Positions 5,115-45,996 of a stretch of DNA of 47,728 nucleotides are shown here, piece after piece (positions within the stretch are counted from its first letter, which is position 1; each line of letters opens with the position of its first letter). The notes under the pieces were generated by a model. The model saw nothing but the letters and a program-made list of their open reading frames with translations. It was not told the DNA's origin and did not search any database. Source of the stretch: Pelodictyon luteolum (lineage in GTDB: Bacteria > Bacteroidota > Chlorobiia > Chlorobiales > Chlorobiaceae); contig DYNE01000014.1 of NCBI GenBank assembly GCA_020721225.1, forward strand, positions 1 through 47,728, given 5' to 3'. A program made the translations under genes and the position numbers.

Positions 5115-5275
5115 CCCATGCCTCCATACAGAATTCCTGTTGCTTTTCAATGATACCGCGAATCTCTTTCAATTCAAACCGACCGAAGCCTCCGCTATTC
5201 TGGAGACGAATCAGGTAGCGCCAAAACTTCGCAATCTTGTCGTCTCGCTCCACGTGGATGTCTATTGACGGTTCA
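5095..5275 (-). pseudogene. DUF4160 domain protein, N-terminally truncated (copy 2)
   Basis: The recognisable part reads DIHVERDDKIAKFWRYLI, GGFGRFELKEIRGIIEK, CMEAWDEYFNG. Family members normally begin with about 20 more residues ahead of a PPHIHV-like segment. Here that part is replaced by sequence read out of frame from the recD 3' end, and no good start codon or ribosome site exists. The recD stop (5262) falls inside the expected N-terminal region, so a recombination joined the two genes. The same junction occurs in copy 1, so it predates the duplication. It may still be translated by coupling to recD, so truncated-but-expressed is an alternative to pseudogene. Confidence 0.6.
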
Positions 5276-6998: not shown

Positions 6999-7096
6999 GA
7001 GCACCTCGATGATGTTGTTCCGCGAACCGAGAGGTATCGGTGCTGCTTTCCAACCTGCACTGTGTAATCCGGACAGGACGGTGTTTCGGAATGAAT

Positions 7097-7116
7097 GGCG
7101 GACAGGAATGTCCGCC
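7097..7116. repeat. short perfect palindrome between recB and recD
   Basis: GGCGGACA-GGAA-TGTCCGCC is an 8-bp stem with a 4-nt loop in the 130-bp recB-recD gap. It resembles the repeat units scattered elsewhere in the window (GC-rich stems in spacers). It could attenuate or stabilise the operon mRNA. Confidence 0.45.
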
Positions 7117-7128
7117 CTCCTGTAACCA

Positions 7129-10809: not shown

Positions 10810-13800
10810 CCCTTCCCTCCGTGTTCAAGCATCGGTAATAACACCTCTTCGGCAATGGCTGCAAAGCGCTCGCCGAGGGGCGGCTCCGTGCCGAAACAGC
10901 GGCGGAAGGCCGGATCGGCACCCTCGCCTTCGCGTCCGCCGTACCCTTCACGCCATGCGGCCAGGGCGGCTTCGGTACGCTCGCGCTCCGTTTTTTCCGC
11001 CTTGCCTGCCCAGGCCGTCGAGGCGCGGGGGAAAAAGGGCAACGGCTCCATGAGCCCCTGCCGGTAAAGCGAGAGCATGGTTTCGAGCCTGCCTGAGGCG
11101 TCGGCTACGGGAGTGTACCTGACGGCACGGTCGAGCATGACGAGACGGGTCTCCTGCATATGACCCGGACTGCACGCACCGAGCACGAGGTGCAGAATCC
11201 ATGAACCGATGCGATCCTTCTCCCGCATCTTCGCGCAGCGGTAGAGCAGCTGCCCGGAGGGCAGAAGATGGTCGAGCCTGCCGGTCAGCCGGAATCCCCC
11301 GATGTCGAGATCGGCTTCAAGCACGGCTGGCGTCGCGCTCCCCTTAAGCTCCGGAAGCCTGTCGGCGAACTCCCTCACCTCGGCAAGCAGCTCTCCGAAG
11401 AGCAATTCGCCGTGTCGGGCCGGCGGCAAGAGACCTCTCGACCGGAACAGAGGCAGGAGAGCCTCTTCTTTTCCCCCTTCGAGCACCGCTGCAAGCAGTT
11501 CCTGGCGCATCAGGTATGCGTCGAGGCCCTCGGCGCCGAAGGGCTCGCGCTCTTCGAGCGGACGAAGCGCTGCAGAGGGTTTGAGTCCGAGCTGCCGGTC
11601 GAGAAAGAATGCCGAGGGGTTGGCGAAAAACTTCACCAGATCGTCGATCGTCACCCGGCGATCCCCGTCGTCAGCCTCAGGAAGCGGTTCGTCCATAAAG
11701 GGACGGGCTTCGACCGGATTTCGCCCCCTGCTCCCATTACCTGCATTGCGCCCATTACGTAGATTACGCCCATTGCGACGTTCAAGCGCCCGGAAATTAT
11801 CGACCGAGTAGCTGAAAAGTGGCGACCCTTCGGTGAAGTATGCGGGACTGAACCCCTGGAGCCTGTGCCGGACAACCATGCGCGATATCGCGTCCTCCCC
11901 TTCCGGAAATGCGAAACCCCGCGCTATGGCATCGAGCAGTTCGCTCACCAGCACGGAGGGCGGCTGTGGCGTGTTGTCCCTGATGCTCTGGCCGACATAG
12001 CTCAGGTAGAGGACATCGCGTGCAGAGAGGATCGATTCGAGAAAGAGGTAACGGTCGTCGCCGCGGACGGAGCGGTCACCCCTGCGCGGTTCCCTCGACA
12101 TCATGTCGAAACCCGGCAAACGCTGCTGGCGGGGGAAAGCCCCGTCGTTCATGCCGATCATGGCAACCACGCGGAACGGGATGCTGCGCATCGGCAGCAT
12201 GGCGCAGAAGGTGATGCCGCCGGTCATGAAGCCGAGCCCCATCTCGAACTTTTCGAGACGGCCGCGCAGCCAGGCGATCATCACCGGGGCCGCCGTCTCG
12301 CCCCCGAAACCGGCCTCTGCGGCGAGTTCCGTCAGTCTGTCGATTTCGGCGGCGATGTGCGAAAGCTCCCTTTCGACCACCTCATCGGCGTCGATAAAGG
12401 TGTCGAGCATCCAGATGAAATGATCCCGCCATCCGTCGAGCGTGCGTGGCCGATCGAACCTTGCCGAGAGCGCATCGAGGGCATCGATGAAATCGGCGAG
12501 CTTGCCGAGGGTTTCCGCGTCGCCCTCGACGTCAAAAGGCAGCACCCCGTCCGAGAGCACCCCCTCGTCCGGCATGGCATAGCCGAGCAGCAGCCGCTCG
12601 AGCCCCGCCCTCCACGAGTTTTCGCGGAAAGGGGGCAGGCCGAGGCCGCTCCGCGAACGCTCGTCCATACCCCAGCAGATTCGCGTATCGGCCACCCAGA
12701 CTCGAATCGTATCGAGTTCCTCTTCGTCGAGCCTGAAGCGTCGGCTCACCGGCGGCGAAGAGAGCAGATCGAAAATCTCCGGAGCAGGGAGACGGCTGCC
12801 GTAGAGTTCGAGCAGCTTCAGCAGGGCCGGGGCTATGCCACCCTCGTCGAGCATGCGGCGGTCGGCTATCGAATGCGGCAGGCGCGGTACGCCCTCGCCG
12901 GAAACTCCGAAGACCGTGGCGATATAGGGGGCATAGGTCTCGATATCCGGCGACATCACGACGATATCACGAGGTTCCAGTCCGGGAAGATGTTCGAGAA
13001 GATCGAGCAGGTTGTCGTGCAGCACCTCGACTTCGCGCAGCGGATTGTGGCAGGAGTGAACCTGAACCGAACGGTCGGCAGGATCCGGCGAGGAACGGCG
13101 CTCCCCCTCCTCCCCCGTACCGCTGAGGTTGAGCATGTCGGACTGCAGGGCGTGCAGGAGGGTGTCGTCGGCGGGTTCGATGTAGAGGTCGTGCTCGTTT
13201 TCGATTCCGCCGGCTTCGAGCAGGAGATCGGCGAACTCACGGCCGCTTCTGCCGAGCGAGGCAAGCAGCGGATTGCCCTCGGTGCTCAGTTCCCGTTCGC
13301 CCTCGCTCATCCGGAAGAGCTTTCTGCGGGAAACGATATCCGACCAGTACTCCTGCGTCGGGCTCAGCAGGAAGATGTTGACCGGTATCCTCGTCGCCAG
13401 GGCTTCGATCATCCCGATATGGTAGGGCGGCATGCAGGAGATGCCGAAGAGAGAAATCCGCTTCGGAAAGGCGGCAGGAAGCGGCGCGTGCCGAACCTTG
13501 AGGCAGAACTCGGTTTTCAGACGGCCACGATGCTTGCCGGAACTCTCTGCAACCAGCGCCCGCCATAATTCCGGCTGCCAGTCGAGGGCCCCGTCGTTTC
13601 GCCCCTCTTCCCATGCGGCGAGAAGGTCGGTACGGAAAAGGGTGTACTGGTCGAAGGTATCGGCGATGCGGCCGGAGAGCTGAAAGAGCTTGAGCCCCTC
13701 CCGGTCGTTCCGCAGGTAGGAGCGAAGGGGCGAAAATAACTCACGATCGAGCATCTCAGGCAGGAGGCGCATGAGTGTCCAGCACATCGTCTCTTTTGAA

Positions 13801-14057
13801 AACTTCTCCGAATCGGGCTGCGTCAGTTCCATCTCCTCGAAAAGTTGCTGCAGCAGCCTGTTCGGAAAGGGATACTCCGCACCGGCCCAGACGCCGAACC
13901 GCCGGGCAAGTTCCATGGAAATCCACCGCTGCATGCCGCGACTCTGCACCACTATTTTCTCGGGTTCGAAAACGGATGGCGGATTGCGACGCAGAACTTC
14001 CGCCAGCGCATCGACAAGCGTTTCCATCCGGTTTCCGGTATAGAGATGCAGGGTCAT
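10806..14057 (-). CDS. recC: RecC, exodeoxyribonuclease V gamma subunit
   Basis: This 1083-aa protein scaffolds the RecBCD complex, splits the duplex and, in well-studied relatives, reads the Chi site. The opening LHLYTGNRMETLVDALAEVL and IVVQSRGMQRWISMELA are typical of RecC, as is the inactive-helicase core with VVMSPDIETYAPYI and RVVAMIGMNDGAFPR. Length is near the E. coli value (1122). The start overlaps the stop of the PH-domain gene by 4 nt (ATGA), and the stop overlaps recB the same way. A low-complexity stretch RRNGRNLRNGRNAGNGSRGR near residues 760-780 is encoded by short tandem repeats and is probably a flexible insertion. Confidence 0.95.
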   Translation of the reverse strand: MTLHLYTGNRMETLVDALAEVLRRNPPSVFEPEKIVVQSRGMQRWISMELARRFGVWAGAEYPFPNRLLQQLFEEMELTQPDSEKFSKETMCWTLMRLLPEMLDRELFSPLRSYLRNDREGLKLFQLSGRIADTFDQYTLFRTDLLAAWEEGRNDGALDWQPELWRALVAESSGKHRGRLKTEFCLKVRHAPLPAAFPKRISLFGISCMPPYHIGMIEALATRIPVNIFLLSPTQEYWSDIVSRRKLFRMSEGERELSTEGNPLLASLGRSGREFADLLLEAGGIENEHDLYIEPADDTLLHALQSDMLNLSGTGEEGERRSSPDPADRSVQVHSCHNPLREVEVLHDNLLDLLEHLPGLEPRDIVVMSPDIETYAPYIATVFGVSGEGVPRLPHSIADRRMLDEGGIAPALLKLLELYGSRLPAPEIFDLLSSPPVSRRFRLDEEELDTIRVWVADTRICWGMDERSRSGLGLPPFRENSWRAGLERLLLGYAMPDEGVLSDGVLPFDVEGDAETLGKLADFIDALDALSARFDRPRTLDGWRDHFIWMLDTFIDADEVVERELSHIAAEIDRLTELAAEAGFGGETAAPVMIAWLRGRLEKFEMGLGFMTGGITFCAMLPMRSIPFRVVAMIGMNDGAFPRQQRLPGFDMMSREPRRGDRSVRGDDRYLFLESILSARDVLYLSYVGQSIRDNTPQPPSVLVSELLDAIARGFAFPEGEDAISRMVVRHRLQGFSPAYFTEGSPLFSYSVDNFRALERRNGRNLRNGRNAGNGSRGRNPVEARPFMDEPLPEADDGDRRVTIDDLVKFFANPSAFFLDRQLGLKPSAALRPLEEREPFGAEGLDAYLMRQELLAAVLEGGKEEALLPLFRSRGLLPPARHGELLFGELLAEVREFADRLPELKGSATPAVLEADLDIGGFRLTGRLDHLLPSGQLLYRCAKMREKDRIGSWILHLVLGACSPGHMQETRLVMLDRAVRYTPVADASGRLETMLSLYRQGLMEPLPFFPRASTAWAGKAEKTERERTEAALAAWREGYGGREGEGADPAFRRCFGTEPPLGERFAAIAEEVLLPMLEHGGKG
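11728..11778 (-). repeat. tandem repeat inside recC
   Basis: About 18-bp units built on GCCCATTACG and GCCCATTGCG (plus-strand reading) repeat two to three times. They encode the Arg/Asn/Gly-rich stretch of RecC. The frame is kept. The units differ from the recB repeat in sequence but have the same effect, a polar loop insertion. Confidence 0.65.
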
Positions 14058-15931: not shown

Positions 15932-16087
15932 GCGTGATTATGGTCAACTGCCCGAAAACGAAATTTTCCTTCCCGATAAAATACAGCAATTTCTTCAGTT
16001 TCCTTTCACTTACGAAGAGCGGGAGAAAATGTTTATTTTCAAATGTCGATGCCCACAACGGATACTCATGAAAAACATAACTTTCCC

Positions 16088-17326
16088 ATGAACAACACGA
16101 TTGTATTGCTCTCCCTGCTCGGCGTCATGCTCACCACACCGCTCTCCGGCGCATCCGGAGCGACCGGTCTGCCTGAAAACCATGCCGCATCTCCGGAAGC
16201 ACAAAACGAACTGGCCGTCGATCTGTACCGCAATCTTGCAGTTACCGGAAAAAACCTCTTTTTCTCCCCCTCCAGCATCGAAACCGCGCTTTCCATGACC
16301 ATGTCCGGAGCGCGAAACCGGACGGAACGGCAGATGGCCGATGTAATGCATGTCGGCCCTGACGCCATGGAACGCCACCATGCCGGACTCGCATCGTTCG
16401 AAAAACAGCTTGAGGCCATCCAGAAAAAAGGTAGGGTAACGATAGCCTCCTCGAACTCGATCTGGCCGCAGAAGAACTATCCGCTTGCGCCTTCATGGCT
16501 TGCGCAGCTCAAACGGTACTACGGAACATCGGTAACGCCGGTCGATTACATCCATGAGACGGAAAAAGCGCGGATCGCTATCAACCGGCGAGTGGAAAAG
16601 GATACGAAAAACCGGATCCGGGAGCTTCTCAAACCCGGTATTCCCGATCCCCTGACAAGACTCGCGCTGGTCAATGCAGTCTATTTCAAAGGCGATTGGG
16701 AGCACCCGTTCAATGAAAACAACACGGTTGCATCCCCGTTTTACATCCGCCAGGGAACGGCGGGAAAAGCCCCGCTGATGCGGCAGAGCGCATCGTTCGG
16801 CTACGCCGATCATGACGGGGTGCAGGTGCTCGAACTTCCCTATGCCGGAAAAGAGCTCTCCATGATCGTGGTACTGCCGAAAGAACGGTTCGGCCTCGAA
16901 GCTCTTGAAAAAACCCTGACTCCGAAGCAGTTTGCCCTCTGGACGGCTAATCTCGGCGAAAGAAAAATCGAAGTGCTTCTTCCCAAATTCCGCACCACCT
17001 CAGCGTTCCGCCTCGACGAGACTCTCAGGCATATGGGAATGACCGACGCATTCGACGGGAATCTCGCCGATTTCAGCGGCATGGTATCCAATAACGACAA
17101 ACTGTACATCGGTGCGGTCGTCCACAAGGCTTTCGTGGATGTCGGCGAGAAAGGCACCGAAGCTGCGGCAGCGACAGCGGTAGTCATGCAGCTCCGGAGC
17201 GCGATGCCGATGCCGGTACCGGTATTCAAGGCCGACCACCCGTTCCTCTTTGCCATCCGGGAGAACAGCACGGGACGCATCCTTTTCATGGGACGCATCT
17301 GCGATCCGACGCTCGGAGGCGAATAG
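16088..17326 (+). CDS. exported serpin (serine protease inhibitor), predicted P1 Arg
   Basis: This is a 412-aa serpin with an N-terminal signal peptide (NNTIVLLSLLGVMLTTPLSG), so it should act in the periplasm or outside. Serpin landmarks are FFSPSSIETALSMTMSGAR, NAVYFKGDWEHPF, and HKAFVDVGEKGTEAAAAT just before the reactive loop. The hinge follows the inhibitory consensus exactly (Glu-Lys-Gly-Thr-x-Ala4-Thr). Counting 17 residues from the hinge Glu places Arg at P1 and Ser at P1' (MQLR|S), predicting inhibition of trypsin-like proteases. ATG 16088 is chosen because it puts the signal peptide at the N-terminus; 16043 is the alternative. The next gene begins within 3 nt of its stop, so the two form an operon. 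Confidence 0.93.
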   Translation: MNNTIVLLSLLGVMLTTPLSGASGATGLPENHAASPEAQNELAVDLYRNLAVTGKNLFFSPSSIETALSMTMSGARNRTERQMADVMHVGPDAMERHHAGLASFEKQLEAIQKKGRVTIASSNSIWPQKNYPLAPSWLAQLKRYYGTSVTPVDYIHETEKARIAINRRVEKDTKNRIRELLKPGIPDPLTRLALVNAVYFKGDWEHPFNENNTVASPFYIRQGTAGKAPLMRQSASFGYADHDGVQVLELPYAGKELSMIVVLPKERFGLEALEKTLTPKQFALWTANLGERKIEVLLPKFRTTSAFRLDETLRHMGMTDAFDGNLADFSGMVSNNDKLYIGAVVHKAFVDVGEKGTEAAAATAVVMQLRSAMPMPVPVFKADHPFLFAIRENSTGRILFMGRICDPTLGGE

Positions 17327-29533: not shown

Positions 29534-29885
29534 GGAGTATCGGAGTATCGCTTCGCGGTAGAAGATGGGAGTGGGCTGAGTGGAGATCGGTTGAACGTGC
29601 TGAGTGTTACGGGTCAGGTTGAAGAGGCTGGATGGCTTGTCAGCTGATTAGCAGGAAAAGATTTTGGCTGTTTTGTTGTCTCGCCATTTCGCCATCCAGC
29701 TATCCAGCCAGGAGTAGAAGAAAGAAAATAATCTGATGCCGCGCGGCGCGCGATACCCCCATTCGCTGAGCGAATGATACTCCCGGGCGTACCCGACCGA
29801 TACTCCTTTTCCTCTGGTTAATGGGAAGGAATTTCAGGATTGTCGCGGGCTGTATAACTGCATAGTTGTATTGAAAATGAGATAA
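29534..29885 (+). mobile_element. MITE-like repeat element, left end missing (copy A1)
   Basis: This copy shares with copy C (45527-45996) the ATACTC-hairpin modules, a core containing GAACGTGCTGAGTGTTACGG, and the right end GGTTAATGGGAAGGAATTTC through the terminal repeat at 29855-29885. The outer left terminus seen in copy C is absent. It encodes no transposase, so it is non-autonomous if mobile. It meets copy A2 head to head. Confidence 0.6.
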
Positions 29886-29962
29886 CGCCTTGCCCGGAAT
29901 ACAAATGGCGGGTTGGAAAACCCGCCCCCCCTTATTCCATTTCCAATACAACTATGCAGTTA
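29855..29962. repeat. 31-bp inverted repeat joining two element copies
   Basis: 29855-29885 and 29932-29962 are inverted copies matching at 29 of 31 positions (ending TATTGAAAATGAGATAA and beginning TTATTCCATTTCCAATA). The 46 nt between them hold a strong hairpin GGCGGGTT-GGAA-AACCCGCC (29907-29926). The arrangement is two elements meeting by their same ends. Confidence 0.75.
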
Positions 29963-30548
29963 CCCGAAAATCCTCCCCACCAACAAACAGGCACCTGTTT
30001 CGAACCGAGAAACCCGCCATCAAGCCCACCTGCCCACTCTCCCCCTTTCTCACCTATTCCCCCCTCATCGCTAAACGCTCATCTGGCTTGATAGCTTGAT
30101 AGTTTTTTAGCAAGAAAAGTGACATACAATCCAGCCCACGGATCACCGCCCACCGCTCACGCTTTTCCTTCTGTGAAAATCCGATTTCAATAAGCGGGAA
30201 CCGCACTCTTTAAAACGTGAATAGGGAAGAAGTGAGTAAGGGGGTAAGCGTCTCCAGCTTTTCAATCCGTGAAAATCAATCCCCTCTTCAATCAGCGGGA
30301 ACGCGTTCTTACTCTTACAGCTCGATAGCTGAAGAGCTTAACACAATCCCCCGGTCAACCTTCATCCATCAATCTGTGCTAATCTGTGAAAATCCGTGGG
30401 CAAAAATCTTCCTCTCCCATCTTCCCTCGTCACCTCTTCACTTCTTCTCCGGGTTTTCCGGCTACTGGCTACTGAATACTGGCCCATTGCCCCCCCTCAT
30501 CGCTTGGCCCTGGATTATAAATGTATTATTGAAATAGAATTGGAATTA
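29932..30548 (-). mobile_element. MITE-like repeat element, complete ends (copy A2, inverted)
   Basis: The outer ends match those of copy C in opposite orientation: TTATTCCATTTCCAATACAA at 29932 and TTGAAATAGAATTGGAATTA ending at 30548. The two ends are imperfect inverted repeats of each other. The 617-bp interior has no gene. It contains repeated phrases around GTGAAAATCC (30170-30410) and no ATACTC hairpins, so it is a diverged or composite copy. Confidence 0.55.
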
Positions 30549-34320: not shown

Positions 34321-34394
34321 GGACAATTAGCTCAGTTGGTTAGAGCGTTCGCTTCACACGCGAGAGGTCATAGGTTCGAGTCCTATATTGTCCA
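34321..34394 (+). tRNA. tRNA-Val (anticodon CAC)
   Basis: The cloverleaf is complete. The acceptor stem is GGACAAT with ATTGTCC and the D arm is GCTCAGTTGGTTAGAGC. The anticodon arm is TTCGC-TTCACAC-GCGAG, giving anticodon CAC (valine, GTG codons). The T arm is ATAGG-TTCGAGT-CCTAT and the discriminator is A. CCA is not encoded. It lies between two paralogous small genes on the opposite strand. Confidence 0.96.
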
Positions 34395-34983: not shown

Positions 34984-36441
34984 ATGGACAAAAAAATCAG
35001 AAAGGTTCTTGTAGCCAATCGCAGCGTACCGGCGGTACGGGTTATTCAAACATGCAAAGACAGAAAAATCCCGACAACGGCGGTTTACAGCACTCCGGAC
35101 CGGCTTGCAGCCCATGTGTTCATGGCGAATGATGCGGTTCATATCGGCGAGGCTCCGCCGATAGAGTCGTACCTGAACATGGAAAAGATTATCGCCGCCG
35201 CCATCAAGACCGGCGCAAACGGCGTGCATCCGGGCTGGGGCTTCCTTTCCGAAAATGCGAAGTTCGCCCGAATGGTGCAGGATTCGGGCCTGATATGGAT
35301 CGGGCCGAGCCCTGAAGTGATCCAGAAGATGGGCGACAAGATCGAGTCGAAAATAATTGCCAAAGAAGCCAGGGTACCCACCATCCCGGGCATCAATTCG
35401 CCGAACACCACCGAGGAAATCCGCAGGTGGATGCTGGAAGAGGACGTTGTGTTTCCGATTATCATCAAAGCCTCTTCGGGCGGCGGCGGCAAAGGGATGG
35501 TGAGAGTCGGCAACGACACGGAACTTGAGACCGCGCTGGCACAGGCCCGGTCGGAAGCGAAAAAATCATTCGGCAACGACGAAATACTCGTTGAAAAGTT
35601 TATCGAAAAGGGCAAGCACATCGAGGTGCAGATCATTGCCGACCAGCACGGCAACGTGCTTCATCTCTACGATCGCGAGTGCACGCTGCAGCGCCGCAAT
35701 CAGAAGGTGATCGAAGAGGCCCCCTCTCCCAGCCTCGACGAAGAGACCCGCAACTCGATCTGCGAAACGGCCGTCCGGCTCATGCGCACGATCGGCTACT
35801 CCTCTGCAGGCACGGTCGAGTTTCTGCTCGATTCTGCAACCGGCAAGTTCTACTTCCTCGAAGTGAACACCCGCCTTCAGGTTGAGCACGGCATTACCGA
35901 GCTGGTGACCGGCGTGGATATCGTCAGCCTGATGCTCGACATAGCCCAGGGCGAACCGCTCAGCTTCCGGCAGGAAAACATCCGTCCGAACCGCTGGGCA
36001 CTGGAAGTCCGCCTCAACGCTGAAGATCCTGCAACGTTCAACCCTTCATTCGGCAACATCAGCCGCCTGCACCTGAATCTCTATCCAGGAACCAGAGTTT
36101 CGCAGGGGGTCTATGAGGGCTCTGAAATTCCTCCCTACTACGACTCGCTGATCATGCTCCTGATGACAACCGGCCCCGACAGGGAAACCGCTATCATGAA
36201 GATGGACAGCATTCTCTGCCGGAACCTGAGGGTCGAAGGGGTCAAAACACTTTCGCCACTGCTTTTGAGCATCATCCGGCACCCGAATTTCATCAAAGGC
36301 GATTTTTCGACGCGTTTTATCGAAGAGCATATGGACGAGCTCGTCTCCATGTTCCCCGAGAACGACAGCGAAGAGGATGCGCTGAAAATCGCCAGATATG
36401 TAGCTGAAATTTCTGCACTTGGAACACCGAACTGGATTTAA
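34984..36441 (+). CDS. pycA: pyruvate carboxylase subunit A (biotin carboxylase)
   Basis: The 485-aa enzyme uses ATP and bicarbonate to carboxylate biotin on its partner. Family marks are VLVANRSVPAVRVIQTC, GVHPGWGFLSENAKFA, the glycine-rich ATP loop IIIKASSGGGGKGMVRV, DRECTLQRRNQKVIEEAPSP and the biotin-site FLEVNTRLQVEHGITELVTG. It ends 5 nt before the carboxyltransferase/biotin gene, so the two form a two-subunit carboxylase. The same fold serves acetyl- or propionyl-CoA carboxylases; the pyruvate assignment comes from the partner's carboxyltransferase domain. In the expected reductive TCA cycle organism it would refill oxaloacetate. Confidence 0.92.
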   Translation: MDKKIRKVLVANRSVPAVRVIQTCKDRKIPTTAVYSTPDRLAAHVFMANDAVHIGEAPPIESYLNMEKIIAAAIKTGANGVHPGWGFLSENAKFARMVQDSGLIWIGPSPEVIQKMGDKIESKIIAKEARVPTIPGINSPNTTEEIRRWMLEEDVVFPIIIKASSGGGGKGMVRVGNDTELETALAQARSEAKKSFGNDEILVEKFIEKGKHIEVQIIADQHGNVLHLYDRECTLQRRNQKVIEEAPSPSLDEETRNSICETAVRLMRTIGYSSAGTVEFLLDSATGKFYFLEVNTRLQVEHGITELVTGVDIVSLMLDIAQGEPLSFRQENIRPNRWALEVRLNAEDPATFNPSFGNISRLHLNLYPGTRVSQGVYEGSEIPPYYDSLIMLLMTTGPDRETAIMKMDSILCRNLRVEGVKTLSPLLLSIIRHPNFIKGDFSTRFIEEHMDELVSMFPENDSEEDALKIARYVAEISALGTPNWI

Positions 36442-36446
36442 CCAAC

Positions 36447-38477
36447 ATGACAAATTCCGTTTTCGTAAAACCGGGGATGAGCCCCAAAGAGATCGTTCAT
36501 AACGTTCGCAATCTGGGTGCGATTGCCCTGACCTCTACCGGCATGAGAGACGCCGGTCAATCGGATTATAAAAACCGGCTGAGGATTCGCGATCTCTCCA
36601 CCCTTTCTCCTCACTACAATGAGATGGGGCTCTTCAGTTCAGAGTGCCATGGCGGAGCGCGCTGGCATGTAGGAATCATGAACCGCCGCGAAAGCCCGTT
36701 CGACGAGATTGCGCTGCTCAGGGAAAAAATGCCGAACGTGCTGCTGCAGACGCTCGTGCGCGAAACCAATCTCTGGGGTTATCGTCCTTATCCGAAGAAC
36801 ATCATCGAGCATGTGATTTCCAGGGTAGATATCGACGTATGGCGCTGTTTCTCCTTCCTCAACGACGTACGCAACATGCGCACGGTCGCAGAAGTGGTCA
36901 TGAAGCGCGGTCGCCTTTTCCAGCCTGCCATTGCCTTTACCCAGGCCGACTGGACAACGAATGACTATTACCTGAAACTCGTCAGGGAGATCGTCGATCT
37001 TTGCGGCGGCACGGACGAAATCATTCTCTGCGTCAAGGATATGGCTGGAGTCGGCAGCCCGCGGCGCATGCATTCGCTCTTTGACGCCATCAAGCAGGCT
37101 TTTCCCGATCTGGTTCTGCAATATCACCGCCATGCAACCGACGGTCTTGCCCTTCCTGCGCTCCTTGCTGCCGCTCAGGCCGGCGCAGGCATCATCGATG
37201 TCGAAGAGGACTCGCTCACCCGCTTCTACGGCCAGGCGCCCCTCCTGAGCGTCGCCTCGTTCCTCGAAGAATCGGGCATGAACGTCCATCTCAACGTCAA
37301 AGCGGCGGATGGAGCGGTTCAGAAAGTGCGCGAATGGATCCGCCACTACGAATGGGCCGAATCGCCCTTCAAAGGCTTCGATCACGGCGTCCTTATGCAC
37401 CGCATGCCCGGCGGCGCCTTTCCAAGCTCCTTCGAGCAGGCGCAGAAAGGCGGCTTCCTGCACCTGATGCCCGCGATTCTTAAAATGATGTCGCTCTACA
37501 ACCAGATCGTAAAATATTTCGATGTAACTCCCGGTTCGCAGATCACGTGGGTCACCTGCAGCGGCATCGTGAACCACTACGACAAGGAGAGGGGCATGGC
37601 CGGAGTCAATCATGTCATCGATCTTCTGACACGGTTTGTCGAGGAAAAAAAGCAGGATTTCGATGCCATGCAGCAAGAAGATCAGAACGAACTGCTCCAT
37701 CTTTTCAGGGGCGCTCCGGGAGATTTCAAAAACCTCATCATCGGCAACTACGGAAAACTGCCAATGGGATGGCCGGCAGACTGGGTTTATACAAGCTGTT
37801 TCGGAGAGGAAGGTCGCGAGAAAATCGCTCAGCGCCATGAAGAATCTCCGCTGGACGCGCTTCCGGACGAAGATCTGAAACGCCTGCGCCACGAGCTTGC
37901 GGAACAGCTCGACCGCACTCCGAACGAAGAGGAGTTCATTCTTTATCTCATGCACCCGAAAGATGCCCTCGACCTCATAAGGTTCCGCGAAAAATACGGC
38001 GATGCACCGCTTGTGCTGCCCACCGATGTCTGGAAATCCGGTTTGCAGAAATCGGGCGACAAGGTCGAATTCGAATATAGGGGAGTTCCCTATTCCATCG
38101 AGCGAGTTTCGATCGGTTCGGAACATGACGGTGTCATTCACGCCGTCATGAAGGTCAACAACCAGATCCGGGTATTCAAGATCGAAACGCCTCGCGCCCG
38201 TAAAACCGAGATAAGAATGGCTAAAGGCATAACCGATATCGGCGCCCCGATCAACGGAACCGTCTGGCGTATCGGAAATCCGGATCGCGGTCAGGTCAGG
38301 GCCGGAGACATTGTCCACAAGGGCGAAGAGATAGCAAATCTCGAAGCCATGAAAATGGAGAATGCGATCTTCGCACCATATGACGCGCAGATCACCGAAA
38401 TCACGGTACGGCTCAACCAGATGGTAAAACAGGAACAGCTGCTTTTCGTTCTGGAAGAGGTGAAGGAACAGGATTGA
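36447..38477 (+). CDS. pycB: pyruvate carboxylase subunit B (carboxyltransferase + biotin carrier)
   Basis: The 676-aa protein has an HMGL-like carboxyltransferase TIM barrel (about 20-320), a conserved helical region, and a C-terminal biotinyl domain with the biotin lysine in EAMKMENAIFAP. Metal and substrate elements are recognisable but unusual. The N-terminal aspartate is in MRDAGQSDYKNRLR, where relatives have RDAHQS. CVKDMAGV is normal. The HxH segment reads YHRHATDG in place of the usual HTHDTSG. Together with PycA it makes oxaloacetate from pyruvate. An oxaloacetate decarboxylase alpha subunit is the main alternative, but no beta/gamma sodium-pump genes are present. Confidence 0.88.
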   Translation: MTNSVFVKPGMSPKEIVHNVRNLGAIALTSTGMRDAGQSDYKNRLRIRDLSTLSPHYNEMGLFSSECHGGARWHVGIMNRRESPFDEIALLREKMPNVLLQTLVRETNLWGYRPYPKNIIEHVISRVDIDVWRCFSFLNDVRNMRTVAEVVMKRGRLFQPAIAFTQADWTTNDYYLKLVREIVDLCGGTDEIILCVKDMAGVGSPRRMHSLFDAIKQAFPDLVLQYHRHATDGLALPALLAAAQAGAGIIDVEEDSLTRFYGQAPLLSVASFLEESGMNVHLNVKAADGAVQKVREWIRHYEWAESPFKGFDHGVLMHRMPGGAFPSSFEQAQKGGFLHLMPAILKMMSLYNQIVKYFDVTPGSQITWVTCSGIVNHYDKERGMAGVNHVIDLLTRFVEEKKQDFDAMQQEDQNELLHLFRGAPGDFKNLIIGNYGKLPMGWPADWVYTSCFGEEGREKIAQRHEESPLDALPDEDLKRLRHELAEQLDRTPNEEEFILYLMHPKDALDLIRFREKYGDAPLVLPTDVWKSGLQKSGDKVEFEYRGVPYSIERVSIGSEHDGVIHAVMKVNNQIRVFKIETPRARKTEIRMAKGITDIGAPINGTVWRIGNPDRGQVRAGDIVHKGEEIANLEAMKMENAIFAPYDAQITEITVRLNQMVKQEQLLFVLEEVKEQD

Positions 38478-38489
38478 TCGTTAAACGAG

Positions 38490-38511
38490 GGGGCGACCGG
38501 AAATTCGCCCC
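38490..38511 (+). terminator. hairpin after pycB
   Basis: GGGGCGA and TCGCCCC pair around an 8-nt loop, 13 nt after the pycB stop. Only a short pyrimidine stretch follows, so it is a weak candidate terminator. Confidence 0.5.
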
Positions 38512-38610
38512 TTCGTCAGGAAAACATACCTGATCACGTTCTGACCGTGATTGTCAGATCGCAAGGCAATCCCGCGGAATGAACATAAAAAAATAATGCA
38601 GTATTTTTCT

Positions 38611-38622
38611 TAACAATTGTTA
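38611..38622. promoter_or_regulatory. 12-bp palindrome upstream of sucA
   Basis: TAACAATTGTTA, a perfect palindrome, lies about 140 bp ahead of sucA in the 287-bp spacer, downstream of an A-rich stretch. It would suit a dimeric regulator of the 2-oxoglutarate dehydrogenase operon. The regulator is not in the window. Confidence 0.35.
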
Positions 38623-38764
38623 CCTTACCTGAAGAAACAGCACCGTCAGTGCGTGAAAACCAATATACTGCGTTGCATGACAGGCAGACCCCCCACATAT
38701 CCGCTGCTCTCAGCAGCATCTCTCACTACTCAGGGATTTCATTCCCGTGTAAATCGAAACAGCA

Positions 38765-41596
38765 ATGATCAAGCAGGAAAACAGCTCTTCCTATCTTTTC
38801 GGGGGAAACGCCCCGTATATCGAAGACCTTTATGAAGCCTATCTTGAAAATCCGGGTTCGGTTCCCGAAAACTGGCGCATGTACTTCGATGCCATGCAGC
38901 ATCTCCCTGCGTCAGACGGAAGCGACAGCCGGGACATAGCGCACTCGCCCGTTCAGGCATCCTTTGCCGAACGGGCCCGGCTGGGACCTATCTGCCGCGT
39001 TGTGGCGAGCCCCGATGCCGAACTTGGACGCAAACGCGTTTCGGTTCAGAAGCTGATCGCAGCATACCGCAACATCGGTTCACGCCGGGCTGACCTCGAT
39101 CCCCTCAAACGCCAGGAAAGACCTGCACTGCCTGATCTGGAGCCATCCTTCTACGGTTTTTCCGATACCGATATGGATATTGTTTTTAACACGAGCAATA
39201 CCTATTTCGGAAGCGAAACCATGCCGCTCCGGGAGCTGATCGGAAATCTCCGGGAAACCTACTGCGGGACCCTCGGCATCGAGTTCATGTACATCACCGA
39301 TCAGACCGGGAAACGATGGTGGCAGGCAAAGTTCGAAACAATACGCGCGAAACCCGATTTCAGCCCCGAGAGAAAAAAACACATCCTCGAACGCCTCACA
39401 GCCGCCGAGGGGTTCGAACGTTACCTCCATACCCACTTTATCGGCCAGAAACGGTTCTCCCTTGAAGGCGGCGACAGCTTTATTCCGGCAATGGACGAAA
39501 TCATCCAGCGCGCCGGGAAAGCCGGTGTGCTGGAGATTGTCATCGGCATGGCACACCGCGGTCGGCTGAATGTTCTGGTGAACATCATGGGCAAAAATCC
39601 GCTCGACCTGTTTGCCGAATTTGAAGGCAAACATGCCGGCGACCTTCCATCCGGCGACGTAAAGTATCATCAGGGGTTCACAAGCGATATCGTAACGCCC
39701 GGAGGCCCGGTGAACCTCTCCCTCGCCTTCAATCCATCGCACCTTGAAATCGTCAACCCTGTTGTCGAAGGCGCCGTCAAGGCCAGGCAGGTCAGACGAA
39801 GCGACCGGGACGGCTCGCAGGTACTGCCGATTCTGGTACACGGCGATGCGGCCTTCGCCGGTCAGGGCGTGATCATGGAAACACTCAACCTGGCTCTGAC
39901 CAGAGGATACGGCACCGGAGGTACCGTGCATATAGTCATCAACAACCAGATCGGATTCACGACATCCGATCCGAGAGACAGCCGTTCTACGACATACTGT
40001 ACCGATGTCGTCAAAATGATCGAGGCTCCGGTGCTGCACGTCAACGGCGACGATCCCGAAGCCGTCGTGCTGGCTGCGCAGATGGCTCTCGATTATCGGC
40101 AGGCATTCAAACGGGATGTCGTAATCGATATCATCTGTTTCAGGAAACTTGGCCATAACGAACAGGATACCCCGGCCATGACCCAGCCGCTGATGTACAA
40201 AAATATCGACAAGCACCCCGGAACCCGTAAACTTTATGCCGACAGGCTTCTCTCTCAGGGCATCATCAAGGCGAACGATGCCGAGGCGATAAGCAAACAG
40301 TTCCGCAAGGATCTCGACGAAGGACGCTACAGCGCCAATCCCGTACTCGTCAACAAAACCATTTTCACTGCCGAACCTGGCCCGGGCCGAACCGAAACAT
40401 CGGAAACCGGCGTACCTCTGACAGAGCTGCAGAGAATTTCAGAAAAGATTACGCGTATTCCCGAAAACTTCAGGATCCATCCGCTTGTTGAAAAGGTAGT
40501 GAACGACAGGAGACGGATGGGCCGGGGAGAACATCCGCTCGACTGGGGAATGGGAGAGCACCTTGCGTTTGCCTCGCTCGTGGCTGGAGGATATCCGGTA
40601 CGTATTACCGGTCAGGACAGCGGCAGGGGAACCTTTTCGCACCGCCATGCCGTCCTGCACGACCAGAACCGGGAAAAATGGGATTCCGGCATCTATATAC
40701 CGCTGCAGAACGTTACGGATAACCAGGCGCCATTCACCGTCATTGATTCGGTTCTCTCGGAAGAGGCCGTGCTTGGTTTCGAATACGGATACTCCATTTC
40801 GGCACCCGATACGCTGGTGATCTGGGAAGCCCAGTTCGGCGACTTCGCCAATGGAGCCCAGGTACTGATCGACCAGTTCATCACATCGGGAGAGGTCAAA
40901 TGGGGTCTTGCCTCCGGCCTCACCCTCATGCTCCCCCACGGCTATGAAGGCCAGGGGCCGGAACACTCTTCGGCACGGCCGGAGCGATTCCTGCAACTGT
41001 GCGCCGAAAACAACATACAGGTCTGTCAGCCGACTACGCCAGCCCAGATATTCCATCTGCTGCGCCGCCAGATGACGGCAATGGCTCTCAAGCCCCTGGT
41101 GATCCTTACGCCGAAATCGCTGCTCAGAAACAAGGAGGCGGTTTCAAGACTCGACGAACTGTCGGAGGGACATTTCAGGAACATCATCGGCGATCCGGCT
41201 GCCGATCCGAAAAAAATCACGAGATTGCTGGCCTGCTCCGGCAAAATATACTATGACCTCCTGAACCGCCGACGGGAAAACACCATGGAAAACGCAGCGG
41301 TCATCCGCGTCGAACAGCTCTACCCTTTCCCTTTCGAAGAGTTCTCCGCAGAGATCCGGCGCTACCCTGGGCTGAAGGAAATCGTCTGGTGCCAGGATGA
41401 GCCGAAAAATCAGGGCTACTGGCGTTTTCTCCAGCATTATATCATGAATGCCATGATCCCGGGGCAGCAGTTCGGTTACGCCGGCCGTCCTGCATCGGCA
41501 TCTACAGCATGCGGTTACGCCGCCATGCATGCACTGCAGCAGCAGGCACTGCTCGATCAGGCCTACGGCGAGTTCAGCGTTTTTTACAACAAATAA
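38765..41596 (+). CDS. sucA: 2-oxoglutarate dehydrogenase E1 component
   Basis: The 943-aa thiamine-diphosphate enzyme decarboxylates 2-oxoglutarate and passes the succinyl group to E2. The opening SSYLFGGNAPYIEDLYEAYL is the typical E1o N-terminus. Active-site regions follow: IGMAHRGRLNVLVNIMGK, HGDAAFAGQGVIMETLNLA with NNQIGFTTSDPR (ThDP/Mg site), GQDSGRGTFSHRHAVLHDQ, LPHGYEGQGPEHSSARPERFLQ (quoted in part) and WCQDEPKNQGYW. Length matches the family (about 930). It is the first gene of sucA-sucB-lpdA with 9- and 13-nt gaps. A full oxidative 2-oxoglutarate dehydrogenase would be unexpected in an obligate reductive-TCA autotroph. Confidence 0.95.
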   Translation: MIKQENSSSYLFGGNAPYIEDLYEAYLENPGSVPENWRMYFDAMQHLPASDGSDSRDIAHSPVQASFAERARLGPICRVVASPDAELGRKRVSVQKLIAAYRNIGSRRADLDPLKRQERPALPDLEPSFYGFSDTDMDIVFNTSNTYFGSETMPLRELIGNLRETYCGTLGIEFMYITDQTGKRWWQAKFETIRAKPDFSPERKKHILERLTAAEGFERYLHTHFIGQKRFSLEGGDSFIPAMDEIIQRAGKAGVLEIVIGMAHRGRLNVLVNIMGKNPLDLFAEFEGKHAGDLPSGDVKYHQGFTSDIVTPGGPVNLSLAFNPSHLEIVNPVVEGAVKARQVRRSDRDGSQVLPILVHGDAAFAGQGVIMETLNLALTRGYGTGGTVHIVINNQIGFTTSDPRDSRSTTYCTDVVKMIEAPVLHVNGDDPEAVVLAAQMALDYRQAFKRDVVIDIICFRKLGHNEQDTPAMTQPLMYKNIDKHPGTRKLYADRLLSQGIIKANDAEAISKQFRKDLDEGRYSANPVLVNKTIFTAEPGPGRTETSETGVPLTELQRISEKITRIPENFRIHPLVEKVVNDRRRMGRGEHPLDWGMGEHLAFASLVAGGYPVRITGQDSGRGTFSHRHAVLHDQNREKWDSGIYIPLQNVTDNQAPFTVIDSVLSEEAVLGFEYGYSISAPDTLVIWEAQFGDFANGAQVLIDQFITSGEVKWGLASGLTLMLPHGYEGQGPEHSSARPERFLQLCAENNIQVCQPTTPAQIFHLLRRQMTAMALKPLVILTPKSLLRNKEAVSRLDELSEGHFRNIIGDPAADPKKITRLLACSGKIYYDLLNRRRENTMENAAVIRVEQLYPFPFEEFSAEIRRYPGLKEIVWCQDEPKNQGYWRFLQHYIMNAMIPGQQFGYAGRPASASTACGYAAMHALQQQALLDQAYGEFSVFYNK

Positions 41597-41605
41597 CATC
41601 CACAA

Positions 41606-42853
41606 ATGGCAATAATCGATGTCACCATATCCCAGTTGTCGGAATCGGTTTCCGAAGCGACTCTGCTGAACTGGAAAAAACAGCCAGGAGATGCCGTTGC
41701 CGAAGATGAAATTCTGTTCGAAGTCGAAACAGACAAAGTGGTATTCGATGTCCCGTCACCATCATCCGGAATTCTCTTTGAAATTCTTGTCGGAGACGGA
41801 GGAACAATCGTTCCCGGACAGGTACTTGCGAGAATCGACAGCGAAGGTACCCCGGCGGCAGCTCCATCGGCGCCCGTTGAAGAACCGGAAACCGAAGCAG
41901 GAGCAACGTCGCATCCTTCGGAACAGCAATCTCAGGCGGCAACCCCCTTCGCCATGCCATCGGCCGCCAGAATCATGGCGGAAAGCGGCTTGAATGCCCG
42001 TGAGGTGCCAGGCACAGGAAAACAGGGCAGAATCACCAAGGGCGACGTTCTGGCCGCAATTGCAGCCGGAGCGGAACCAGCCGCGCCGGTACCGGCTTCG
42101 ACACAGAAGATCCTGCCTGTCGAGGCATATCGGGAAACTCCCCTGACAACCGACCGCCCCGAACAGCGCGTACCGATGACCCGGCTCAGGGCACGCATTG
42201 CCGAAAGGCTCCTGCAATCCCAGTCCACGAACGCCATTCTCACGACCTTCAACGAAGTCAACATGCAGCCGGTCATCGATCTGCGGAACCGTTACAGGGA
42301 AGCGTTCGAAAAAGAACACGGCGTCAAACTCGGATTCATGTCATTCTTCGTAAAGGCTGTGGTGCATGCCCTGAGGAAGTATCCGGTACTGAACGCATCG
42401 GTTGACGGCAAGGATATCATCTATCACGGCTATTTCGACATCGGGGTCGCAGTCAGCTCTCCAAGAGGCCTTGTCGTTCCTGTCCTGCGCAACGCCGACC
42501 AGATGAGCATAGCTGAAATCGAACGGAAAATCGCAGACTTCTCCACGAAAGCCAGGCTCGGAACGCTTTCGCTCGAAGAACTGAGCGGAGGCACCTTCTC
42601 TGTTTCAAACGGCGGCGTGTTCGGATCGATGCTCTCGACACCCATCATCAACCCGCCCCAATCGGCGATTCTCGGCATCCATGCAACCAAAGAAAGGCCT
42701 GTTGTTGAAAACGGAGAAATCGTGATCCGTCCGATGAACTACCTTGCCATGTCCTACGACCACCGTATTATCGACGGCAAGGAAGCCGTCCTCGGCCTTG
42801 TTGCAATCAAGGATGCGCTGGAAGACCCTGCGCGTCTCCTCCTCGATCTTTAA
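41606..42853 (+). CDS. sucB: dihydrolipoamide succinyltransferase (E2)
   Basis: The 415-aa protein has a lipoyl domain at 1-80 with the lipoylated lysine in [13 protein letters not shown]. An Ala/Pro/Glu-rich linker follows, then a peripheral-subunit-binding domain ([20 protein letters not shown]) near 115-150 and a catalytic domain from about 190. The active-site histidine and aspartate are in [13 protein letters not shown] near the end. It transfers succinyl groups from lipoamide to CoA and forms the core of the complex. It starts 9 nt after sucA. The VP(M)[12 protein letters not shown] segment fits E2o; E2p is less likely because sucA is an E1o. Confidence 0.95.
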
Positions 42854-42866
42854 GCGAAAACATATC

Positions 42867-44303
42867 ATGACCAGGAAATTCGACATTCTCGTTATCGGCG
42901 CAGGACCAGGCGGCTATATAGCGGCAATCCGCGCGGCACAGCTTGGGTTTTCCGTTGCCTGCTGTGAATTCAACGCATACGACAGCCAGGAGCATGAACC
43001 CAGGCTCGGCGGCACCTGCCTAAACGCCGGCTGCATTCCCCTGAAAGCGCTTGTCGCCTCCTCCGAGGCCTATGAAAAAACAGCGCACAGCCTCTCAAGC
43101 CATGGCATCACCGTCAACGGTGTCACTATCGACGTGGCCAGGATGCAGCAGCGCAAAGAGGAAATCGTCACAAGAATGACCGGCGGCATCCAGTTCCTCT
43201 TCAGGAAGAACAAGATCACCCTGCTCAAAGGGCAGGCATCCTTTGCTGGCAAAACCGAAACAGGCTTCCGGATAACCATAGGCGGCAACGATGGCAAGGA
43301 AGATGTCGTTGCACAGAAAGTCATTATAGCTACAGGCTCGAAAGCCCGGCACATTCCCAACGTAAAGGTCGATAACGTCACGATCTGCGATAACGAAGGC
43401 GCACTGAAATTCACCGAAGCCCCGAAAAAACTCGGGGTGATCGGCGCAGGGGTGATCGGGCTCGAACTGGGTTCTGTCTGGCGACGACTTGGCGCCGAAG
43501 TCACCGTGCTTGAAGTCATGCCGTCATTTCTCGGAAGCGCCGACGAAAGCGTATCGAGGGAAGCTGCAAAACTCTTTCTCAAGCAGGGACTCCGCATCAA
43601 ACTCGGCGTCCGGATAGGTCAGGCAAAGCTTACAGAGCAAGGCATCAGCATCGCCTTTACGGACGATCAGGGAGCCGAACATCTGCTCGAGTGCGACAAG
43701 CTCATCGTCTCCGTAGGACGTGTACCGAATACCGATCACCTCAACCTGGAAGCTGTCGGACTGCAGACCGACGAACGGGGATTCATTCCGGTCAACGACC
43801 ACTGCGCAACGGCGGCGCCAGGCATCTTTGCGATCGGAGATGTCGTCAGGGGGCCCATGCTTGCGCACAAGGCCGAAGATGAAGGAGTCATGGTAGCCGA
43901 ACTGCTTGCCGGCCAGAAGCCGCACATCGATTACAACACCATACCATGGGTCATCTACACGACTCCTGAAATCGCCTGGGTAGGAAAAACCGAGCAGCAG
44001 CTCCGAAGCGAAGGACATGACTACAAAACCGGTATGTTCCCCTTTGCCGCCAACGGAAGGGCTCTCGGGCTGGGCGACGTCGAAGGGTTCGTCAAAATGC
44101 TTGCCGACGGGAAAACCGACGAAATTCTCGGTGTGCACATCATCGGAGTCAATGCTTCCGACCTTATTGCCGAAGCCGCTCTGGCCATGGAGTTCAGGGC
44201 GTCATCCGAAGACATAGCACGGACCTGCCATCCCCATCCGAGCCTTTCGGAAGCCATACGGGAAGCCGCTCTGGCCATCGATAAAAGGGCTTTGAACATG
44301 TAA
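42867..44303 (+). CDS. lpdA: dihydrolipoamide dehydrogenase (E3)
   Basis: The 478-aa flavoprotein reoxidises dihydrolipoamide with NAD+. The FAD site is FDILVIGAGPGGYIAAIRAA and the redox disulfide is in GGTCLNAGCIPLK. The NAD site is KLGVIGAGVIGLELGSVWRR, the second FAD motif is GIFAIGDVVRGPMLAHKAED, and the C-terminal dimer-interface His-Glu pair is in CHPHPSLSEAIREA. ATG 42867 puts the FAD motif 8 residues from the start; the longer frame overlaps sucB. It is the third gene of the operon. Its stop codon TAA coincides with the first bases of a repeat element. Confidence 0.97.
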   Translation: MTRKFDILVIGAGPGGYIAAIRAAQLGFSVACCEFNAYDSQEHEPRLGGTCLNAGCIPLKALVASSEAYEKTAHSLSSHGITVNGVTIDVARMQQRKEEIVTRMTGGIQFLFRKNKITLLKGQASFAGKTETGFRITIGGNDGKEDVVAQKVIIATGSKARHIPNVKVDNVTICDNEGALKFTEAPKKLGVIGAGVIGLELGSVWRRLGAEVTVLEVMPSFLGSADESVSREAAKLFLKQGLRIKLGVRIGQAKLTEQGISIAFTDDQGAEHLLECDKLIVSVGRVPNTDHLNLEAVGLQTDERGFIPVNDHCATAAPGIFAIGDVVRGPMLAHKAEDEGVMVAELLAGQKPHIDYNTIPWVIYTTPEIAWVGKTEQQLRSEGHDYKTGMFPFAANGRALGLGDVEGFVKMLADGKTDEILGVHIIGVNASDLIAEAALAMEFRASSEDIARTCHPHPSLSEAIREAALAIDKRALNM

Positions 44304-44667
44304 TTCCGATACAAATATGCAGTTATATTAACCGCGACAATCCTGAAATTCCTTCCCATTAACAAACAGACGCCTGTTTTACCCGGTTTTACTGTTCAAA
44401 ACAGGCGTCAATTCGTGTAAATCCGTGTAAATTCGTGGGCAGAAAAAGGAGTATCGCTTCGCGTGAGTATCAGTCGGGTACGCCCGGGCGTATCATTCGC
44501 CCCGCGAATGGGAGTATCATGCGCCGCGCGGCTTCAGATTATTTTCTTTCTCCACCTCCCAGCTTCTTCCGCGAAGCGATACTCCAGCAATGCGAAGCAA
44601 GCTATACTCCGCGATGTAACAGCGAGCATACTCCCGAGCACGAAGTGCTCGATACTCCCCTGACCCC
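44301..44667 (-). mobile_element. MITE-like repeat element, one end only (copy B)
   Basis: The element starts TAATTCCGATACAAATATGC exactly at the lpdA stop codon. It continues with the inverted GCGACAATCCTGAAATTCC segment seen in copies A1 and C, then two ATACTC-hairpin arrays (44448-44532 and 44571-44659). The opposite terminus is not found, so it is truncated or diverged. No gene is inside. Confidence 0.6.
44448..44659. repeat. arrays of short hairpins separated by GAGTAT/ATACTC
   Basis: A constant word (GGAGTAT, or ATACTCC on the other strand) alternates with short palindromes of different sequence. One is perfect: CGAGCAC-GAA-GTGCTCG (44635-44651). Others are GCGCCGCGCGGC-like, CATTCGCCCCGCGAATG-like and CGCTTCGCG. 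The orientation of the constant word flips in the middle. Similar arrays are at 29534-29563, 29738-29806, 45654-45745 and 45853-45916. Confidence 0.7.
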
Positions 44668-44812
44668 GTTACGCGATCTTCCCATTCATCGTCGTATGGC
44701 CTTGGACCATGAGTGCCTGAACGAACTGAAATTTCACGGACTTTCCGGTTGAATAAAACCGGAAAAAGTGTTGCTTGTATCAGCACAACCCTGAACCTAA
44801 CCTCGCAGTACC
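44668..44812 (+). promoter_or_regulatory. spacer ahead of the nuclease gene, with a hairpin
   Basis: TTTCCGGTT-GAATAA-AACCGGAAA (44742-44765) is a perfect 9-bp stem between the repeat element and the nuclease gene. No T run follows, so it is more likely a repeat or leader structure than a terminator. The nuclease has no clear ribosome site. Confidence 0.4.
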
Positions 44813-45529
44813 ATGTCCACGCTTTTCTCCCGTAACAGGCTCTGTCTTTTCATCCTGCCCTTTCTTTTTCTTTTTGCCGCCTGCAATGATGCTTCGGAAT
44901 CGGCCAAAGTCGTCAGGATTGCCGATGGAGATACCATTACCATTCTGCATGCCGACAACACACAGGAAAGAATACGACTGTATGGAATCGATTGCCCCGA
45001 AAAATCGCAGCCGTTCGGCAAGTCGGCGCGGAAGTTCACCGGTTCCCTGGTTTTCGGTAAACAGGCAAGCATCCGCAGTATGGATCGGGATAAATATGGC
45101 CGGACTGTGGCCTGGGTATATGTCGGGAAAAAGAACGTCAACGAAGAACTCGTCAGGGCAGGCTATGCGTGGCATTACCGGCAGCACTCGAATGATGCCG
45201 GCCTCAGGAGGCTGGAACATGAAGCCCGTAAGGCAAAACGGGGGTTATGGTCAGATTCGAACCCGGTACCACCATGGGAATATCGACAAGGGGTTCGTTA
45301 TCGTGCATCCGAATCAAATGCCGAGGTTCAGCAATCAAAACCTTCTTTGGCCAGAGCAGAAAACAAAGCGTTACATTCCGACACCCTTTACCATGGAAAT
45401 GTGAAAAACCGGAAATTTCATCTGCCGGGATGCAGCGCCTACAATTGCAAAAACTGTACGGCGGAATTCAGAAACAGGGAGAAGGCAATCGAAGAGGGAT
45501 ATGAGCCATGCCGTATGTGCAACCCATAA
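44813..45529 (+). CDS. staphylococcal-nuclease-type lipoprotein with C-terminal Cys module
   Basis: The 238-aa protein has a lipoprotein signal (LCLFILPFLFLFAAC) and a thermonuclease domain (about 30-150). The catalytic pattern is visible: RIADGDTITI, RLYGIDCPEK (Arg and Asp), QPFGKSARKF, then DKYGRTVAWVYV. After a linker, a C-terminal domain (about 190-238) has cysteines and histidines in FHLPGCSAYNCKNCTAEF and YEPCRMCNP, resembling the metal-binding Ada-like tail found on some bacterial nucleases. It probably degrades nucleic acid at the cell surface or in the periplasm. The stop TAA is also the first three bases of repeat copy C. Confidence 0.9.
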   Translation: MSTLFSRNRLCLFILPFLFLFAACNDASESAKVVRIADGDTITILHADNTQERIRLYGIDCPEKSQPFGKSARKFTGSLVFGKQASIRSMDRDKYGRTVAWVYVGKKNVNEELVRAGYAWHYRQHSNDAGLRRLEHEARKAKRGLWSDSNPVPPWEYRQGVRYRASESNAEVQQSKPSLARAENKALHSDTLYHGNVKNRKFHLPGCSAYNCKNCTAEFRNREKAIEEGYEPCRMCNP

Positions 45530-45996
45530 TTCCAATTCTATTTCAATAATGCACGTATAGTCCGGTACCAGGCGATGAGGGAATGGGAAGATGGGGATTG
45601 TGAGCTGTGAGAAGTTTGCGGTGGGCGGGAAGTCTGTATTCAGTAGCCGGGAAGAGTAGTATCGTTCGCGGGGCGAACGGGAGTATGCTCGCTGTCGCAT
45701 CGCGGAGTATAGCTCGCTTCGCTTTGCTGGAGTATCGCTTCGCGGTAGAAGATTGGGGAATTAGTTCTGAGTTCTGAGTGGAGATCGGAAGAACGTGCTG
45801 AGTGTTACGGGTGTGGTTGAAGAGGCTGGAGTTGAAAAAAGAACATAATTTTATACCGCGCGGCGCGCTATACTCCCATTCGCGGAGCGAATGATACTCC
45901 CGCGAAGCGATACTCCTTTTTTCACTGGTTAATGGGAAGGAATTTCAGGATTGTCGCGGGCAATATAATAGCATATTTGTATTGGAAATGGAATAA
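45527..45996 (+). mobile_element. MITE-like repeat element, both ends (copy C)
   Basis: This is a 470-bp element. The left end is TAATTCCAATTCTATTTCAA, overlapping the nuclease stop codon. The right end is TTGTATTGGAAATGGAATAA. The ends are imperfect inverted repeats over about 26 bp. Inside are two hairpin arrays (45654-45745, 45853-45916) and the core GAACGTGCTGAGTGTTACGG shared with A1. No open frame looks real. It is the best reference copy of the family in this window. Confidence 0.65.

Follow-up and report, generated by a model that had tools for sequence, protein, structure and literature searches.

The window, i.e. the whole stretch of 47,728 nucleotides analysed here (contig 34 of a 2.62-Mb draft assembly in 144 contigs), contains four members of a family of short elements that we interpret as miniature inverted-repeat transposable elements (MITEs), moved in trans, most likely by a transposase of the IS5/IS1031 type; we would give this reading a probability of roughly 0.85. 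It starts from direct observations: the copies are dispersed over the source genome, they have common ends and a 3-bp TNA duplication, and one of their sites is unoccupied in relatives. The properties by which a MITE is recognised, i.e. common terminal inverted repeats, a target duplication, an interior without a transposase gene (in the window copies) and an unoccupied site, were all found in this family. A MITE-like family had already been proposed in a first-pass annotation of the window, and the many dispersed copies with common ends, together with the empty site at position 44301, bear this proposal out.

Inspection of the sequence and genome-wide DNA searches placed all four copies where the first-pass annotation had put them (Table 1). 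Two of them are complete, copy A lacks its left (L) end, the far side ending at a GGAGTAT unit, and copy D has a decayed left end. For copy D the start of the previously proposed interval 44301-44667 is correct, but its end is not, as the decayed left end lies further on. The earlier statement that none of the copies has a gene agrees with Pfam, which gave no match for 3 out of 3 ORFs within or across the window copies. No matching transposase had been seen in the window either, and the Pfam scan of 25 other window proteins likewise detected no transposase family among them.

Table 1. Positions of the four copies and their parts in the window.
Feature	Position	Strand	Remarks
Copy A	29534..29885	-	no L end; R end 29855-29885, outer triplet TAA 29883-29885
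Host spacer, 46 bp, with GC-rich hairpin	29886..29931	.	between two R ends
Copy B, complete	29932..30548	-	target duplication TTA 29932-29934 and 30546-30548
Copy D	44301..44735	-	R end on stop TAA 44301-44303; decayed L end at about 44735
Copy D array, four GGAGTAT units	44575..44658	-	
Copy C, complete	45527..45996	+	duplication TAA 45527-45529 and 45994-45996
Copy C L terminal inverted repeat TTCCAATTCTATTTCAATAATGCA	45530..45553	+	
Copy C forward GGAGTAT array	45680..45754	+	
Copy C opposed array, GGAGTAT-hairpin units	45854..45916	-	
Copy C R terminal inverted repeat	45966..45993	-	

Copies A and B had been described as joined head to head with a 31-bp inverted repeat around a strong hairpin. 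The repeat is present (29855-29885/29932-29962, 90% complementary) and so is the strong structure: the single-strand fold of the junction has -29.1 kcal/mol versus -8.6 in shuffles (z -8.75) and contains an 8-bp GGCGGGTT/AACCCGCC hairpin. The repeat consists of the right (R) ends of the two copies, which point towards one another with 46 bp between them. The two are not joined, however; they are neighbouring, separate insertions, A being truncated, and two separate insertions explain the strong fold of the junction.

The family extends far beyond the window. Genome-wide DNA searches returned 118 matching pieces with 29534-30548 as query and 77 with the copy at 45527-45996. When the source genome was searched with the end patterns, permitting up to 3 mismatches, 38 L and 39 R matches were obtained, as against none for either end with the reversed-pattern control, and chance is thereby excluded as the origin of the shared ends. 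The genome-wide end search suggested by the first-pass annotation has thus yielded many further copies. In total, 57 elements were resolved across the source genome, a count from which nine ends with a non-TNA outer triplet had been left out beforehand, among them that of window copy D (mis-registered end) and one on contig C61 (outer triplet CTA). The L consensus TTCCAATTCTATTTCAATAATGCA and the R consensus TTCCATTTCCAATACAAATATGCAG are imperfect terminal inverted repeats that agree at 18 out of 24 positions, which upholds the imperfect inverted ends noted earlier. The inverted repeat proper begins with TTCC at both sides. The interior between the duplications is 312-955 bp long and has no genes; the elements measure about 320-960 bp.

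The outer TAA or TTA, previously counted as part of the inverted repeat, turned out to be a target duplication. The outer triplets vary between copies and are alike at the two ends of one copy: the same triplet (TAA, TTA, TGA or TCA) stands at both ends in 22 out of 28 facing end pairs, and in 22 out of 25 in a stricter set of L+R pairs with no more than 5 mismatches per end; the match expected by chance for independent triplets is 0.42 per pair. Two of the six non-matching pairs have an R end with 8 mismatches (C27:48766, C117:12435), one is an artefact linking two window copies (44295/45996), and three have damaged triplets (C90, C117:16842, C141). The identical triplets lead us to conclude that these elements duplicate a 3-bp TNA target on insertion. 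The 22 complete elements are not a test of this, since matching triplets were their definition; the test is the unfiltered list of 28 facing pairs. Around the target there is a weak palindromic preference, with T at -2 in 15 and A at +2 in 11 of the same 22 elements, a set picked for matching triplets.

As to the mechanism, we suggest that the elements were mobilised through their ends by a DDE transposase whose gene lies elsewhere, and that insertion took place at TNA through 3-bp staggered cuts. The enzyme would most likely be of the IS5/IS1031 type, since, according to PMC12016507, members of the IS1031 group (IS5 family) duplicate a 3-bp TNA target, and this very duplication is found here. 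The source copy of the transposase may now be lost, decayed or unassembled. The first-pass annotation had recommended looking for an autonomous element with the same ends; none was found in the source genome among the end matches or the IS5-type matches, and a draft of 144 contigs could hide one. A profile search of the source genome with PF01609 and PF13340 yielded two DDE fragments as well as a single DUF4096 gene; the element ends were found at none of the three. The only IS5-type/DUF4096-type copy seen in the genome lies on contig C107 and is broken, and its ends (TTCGTAAATAA) are unlike those of the elements. As no IS5-type transposase with matching ends was found, we do not claim membership of the IS5/IS1031 group. 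There are many MITE families without a known autonomous partner, and for this reason we do not take such a partner as strictly defining a MITE.

It is quite possible, if somewhat short of an even chance, that the elements were moved by another transposase family that makes 3-bp duplications. The failure to find matching IS5 ends would fit such an enzyme, as would the TTCC termini, which do not match the 17-bp repeat GAACCTGTCTAGTATCT of ISLrh, the one IS1031-group repeat that we compared, printed in PMC12016507. On the other hand, TNA in every matching pair corresponds to the preference of the IS1031 group given in the same paper, and an IS5/IS1031-type enzyme remains the one we favour.

Two of the four window copies, C and D, begin exactly on the stop codon of a gene. 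TAA 45527-45529 is the stop codon of an SNase-domain gene (44813-45529), and the TAA of copy D is that of a dihydrolipoamide dehydrogenase-like gene (Pfam). Since the insertion duplicates a triplet already present in the target, the stop codon predates it. TAA and TGA are stop codons as well as TNA sites; an insertion there would recreate the stop where gene and element meet, leaving the gene whole, and since the TNA duplication restores the stop there is no cost; we consider this a clear example of how a TNA-duplicating element can enter a stop codon without harm to the gene. In the whole genome, 14 out of the 57 resolved elements occupy the exact stop of a called gene, copy D at 44301 being additional, whereas stops make up 6.3-6.4% of the TNA sites (intergenic DNA plus stop codons, genome-wide). 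At first this looked like a strong case for an element that actively seeks stop codons, be it through target sequence, terminator structure or translation-coupled access, and a part of the excess survives when each gap is taken into account: 6 out of 21 complete elements are at stops versus 2.4 expected (P 0.006), and in the wider set 11 out of 40 versus 7.0 expected (P 0.019), with 17 of the 57 elements, 3 of them at stops, outside this evaluation. However, the elements are frequently located within very short gene gaps, and these explain most of the excess; moreover, 43 of the 57 elements are away from any called stop, and the counts are based on home-made gene calls to which a length rule had been added before the stop codons were counted. 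We read the stop-codon sites as tolerance, with a mild preference at most, and consider active targeting improbable. Insertions into stop codons would be tolerated above all where the gap between the genes is short.

The empty-site check proposed in the first-pass annotation was made at one site, 44301, which is unoccupied in 29 out of 29 relatives examined, i.e. those with loci returned out of 42 other genomes matching, both strands being read. In all 29 the dihydrolipoamide dehydrogenase-like protein ends at the same final residue (with the stop codon TAA in 16 of them, TGA in 8, TAG in 5), and no element end was found 3' of the gene within the downstream stretch covered, 900 nt in 25 relatives and 152-562 nt in 4. 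The stop of the SNase gene is at the homologous residue in genomes G044 and G068, while G035, G047, G048, G051 and G058 gave no reading. The idea that the repeats are not mobile and represent a conserved feature of gene ends, be it regulatory or a structured RNA, would account for their position near gene ends and their strong hairpins, but it is hardly credible, as Rfam has no match in these copies, the feature is absent at 44301 in all 29 relatives, and both orientations are found with a 3-bp duplication flanking. In the window as a whole, Rfam recognised a single tRNA (34321-34394) and nothing else.

The distribution of the MITE family is narrow. A 77-bp R end has matches in 3 out of 86 family genomes, namely the source genome, G047 and G048. 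The copy in G047 has the TAA duplication, and the element and its flanks are about 96-97% identical to contig C43 of the source genome; judging from these two features it is the same insertion, common by descent or by transfer. Over about 1.5 kb around the element, contig C12 of G047 and source contig C43 are about 96% identical, while the SNase proteins are only 65% identical, and a transfer of this segment is possible. In the genome-contig collection, where the source genome may be missing, the exact R-end pattern had 0 matches and the L-end pattern matched one record, VGGK01000012.1, a Chlorobiota MAG. No insertion event was seen between near-identical strains.

The interiors of the elements present a separate puzzle, the one that we consider most worth following, namely a palindrome that is kept while its sequence changes. 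The interior of copy C and of similar elements consists of opposed arrays in which GGAGTAT is followed by a hairpin, mostly of 17 nt (7-bp stem, 3-nt loop). Among 186 spacers seen after GGAGTAT 71 are distinct. The 30 distinct 17-mers, which are related in groups and do not represent 30 independent cases, form on average 4.83 out of 7 pairs versus 1.93 (maximum 2.6) in 1000 shuffles. Distinct perfect hairpins can occupy the same slot, e.g. CGTTCGCGGGGCGAACG and CGAGCACTTCGTGCTCG; the commonest unit, GCTCGCTGTCGCATCGC (29 times), has no hairpin or palindrome in this register. A triple-heptamer pattern was found 100 times in the source genome, 7 times in G047, 6 times in G048 and not at all in the other 62 genus genomes or in the control. 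GGAGTAT arrays also stand alone, with no element ends in view, on contigs C37, C59 and C98 of the source genome, and the cassettes, inside the MITE and standing alone, occur in 3 out of 65 genus genomes searched. The interior of copy B is different in that it consists of AATCCGTG-like modules, which have a match in 6 out of 65 genus genomes. Because arrays and modules are found beyond the elements, the interior repeats are older than the ends, or independent of them.

It is interesting to compare these arrays with REP/BIME sequences, in which, according to PMC2817692, each unit joins a constant 5' foot to a hairpin and the units form opposed arrays, much as in the element interiors. In contrast to that description, the interior foot here is GGAGTAT, the hairpin is interchangeable between units, and a Y1 transposase gene was not found beside the arrays. 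The source genome has five Y1_Tnp loci, and the stretches around them contain no GGAGTAT arrays, which speaks against a RAYT origin of the arrays. We would speculate, without counting on it, that the elements spread a second, independent repeat in which an invariant GGAGTAT is combined with an exchangeable palindromic hairpin, i.e. a new BIME-like unit. A few other points may be mentioned. The lone arrays near C98 6155, C37 18387 and C59 6120 contain further perfect hairpins, e.g. CGGATGCGAAGCATCCG. At C97:27314-27825 a near-identical block with four GGAGTAT forms three tandem repeats with GC-rich, phrase-like filler. Clusters of AATCCGTG-like modules extend over several kb in G023, G026, G047 and G048 (e.g. 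G047:C31:179-8298), and the relatives with such clusters are mostly without element ends.

The general features of the MITE family resemble those of the Correia/NEMIS and RUP elements. According to PMC2229807, these are likewise short and gene-less, have terminal inverted repeats, a target duplication and many intergenic copies, and are presumed to be mobilised in trans, as we suggest here. The differences from the elements described there are threefold. Firstly, the duplication is a 3-bp TNA here and a terminal TA motif there. Secondly, our elements are about 320-960 bp long, those less than 200 bp. Thirdly, opposed hairpin arrays are found inside the elements here. The IS1031 group, as described in PMC12016507, shares the TNA target and the 3-bp duplication with our elements, which differ from it in having no transposase and in their TTCC ends. 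Text searches of the literature (Chlorobium, green sulfur, Chlorobiaceae), partly judged by title, returned no description of such a MITE family. The kind is well known and the family is new; it appears to be undescribed, and its documentation adds a sizeable MITE family to a genus of green sulfur bacteria for which the text searches found none.

Some other genes of the window deserve a brief mention. An EcoRV-like restriction enzyme gene adjoins that of a D12-class adenine methyltransferase, a type II restriction-modification pair (2745-4633), and RecD-, UvrD/RecB-like and RecC-like genes lie in succession (5262-14057). A bacterial serpin gene (16043-17326, Pfam E 1.2e-113) lies directly 5' of a hydantoinase/oxoprolinase gene. 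Biotin carboxylase and carboxylase-domain genes are followed by genes for the E1 component of 2-oxoglutarate dehydrogenase and for E2-like and E3-like proteins, one of each (34984-44303). If green sulfur bacteria depend at the 2-oxoglutarate dehydrogenase step on an enzyme that uses ferredoxin, the presence of 2-oxoglutarate dehydrogenase genes is unexpected.
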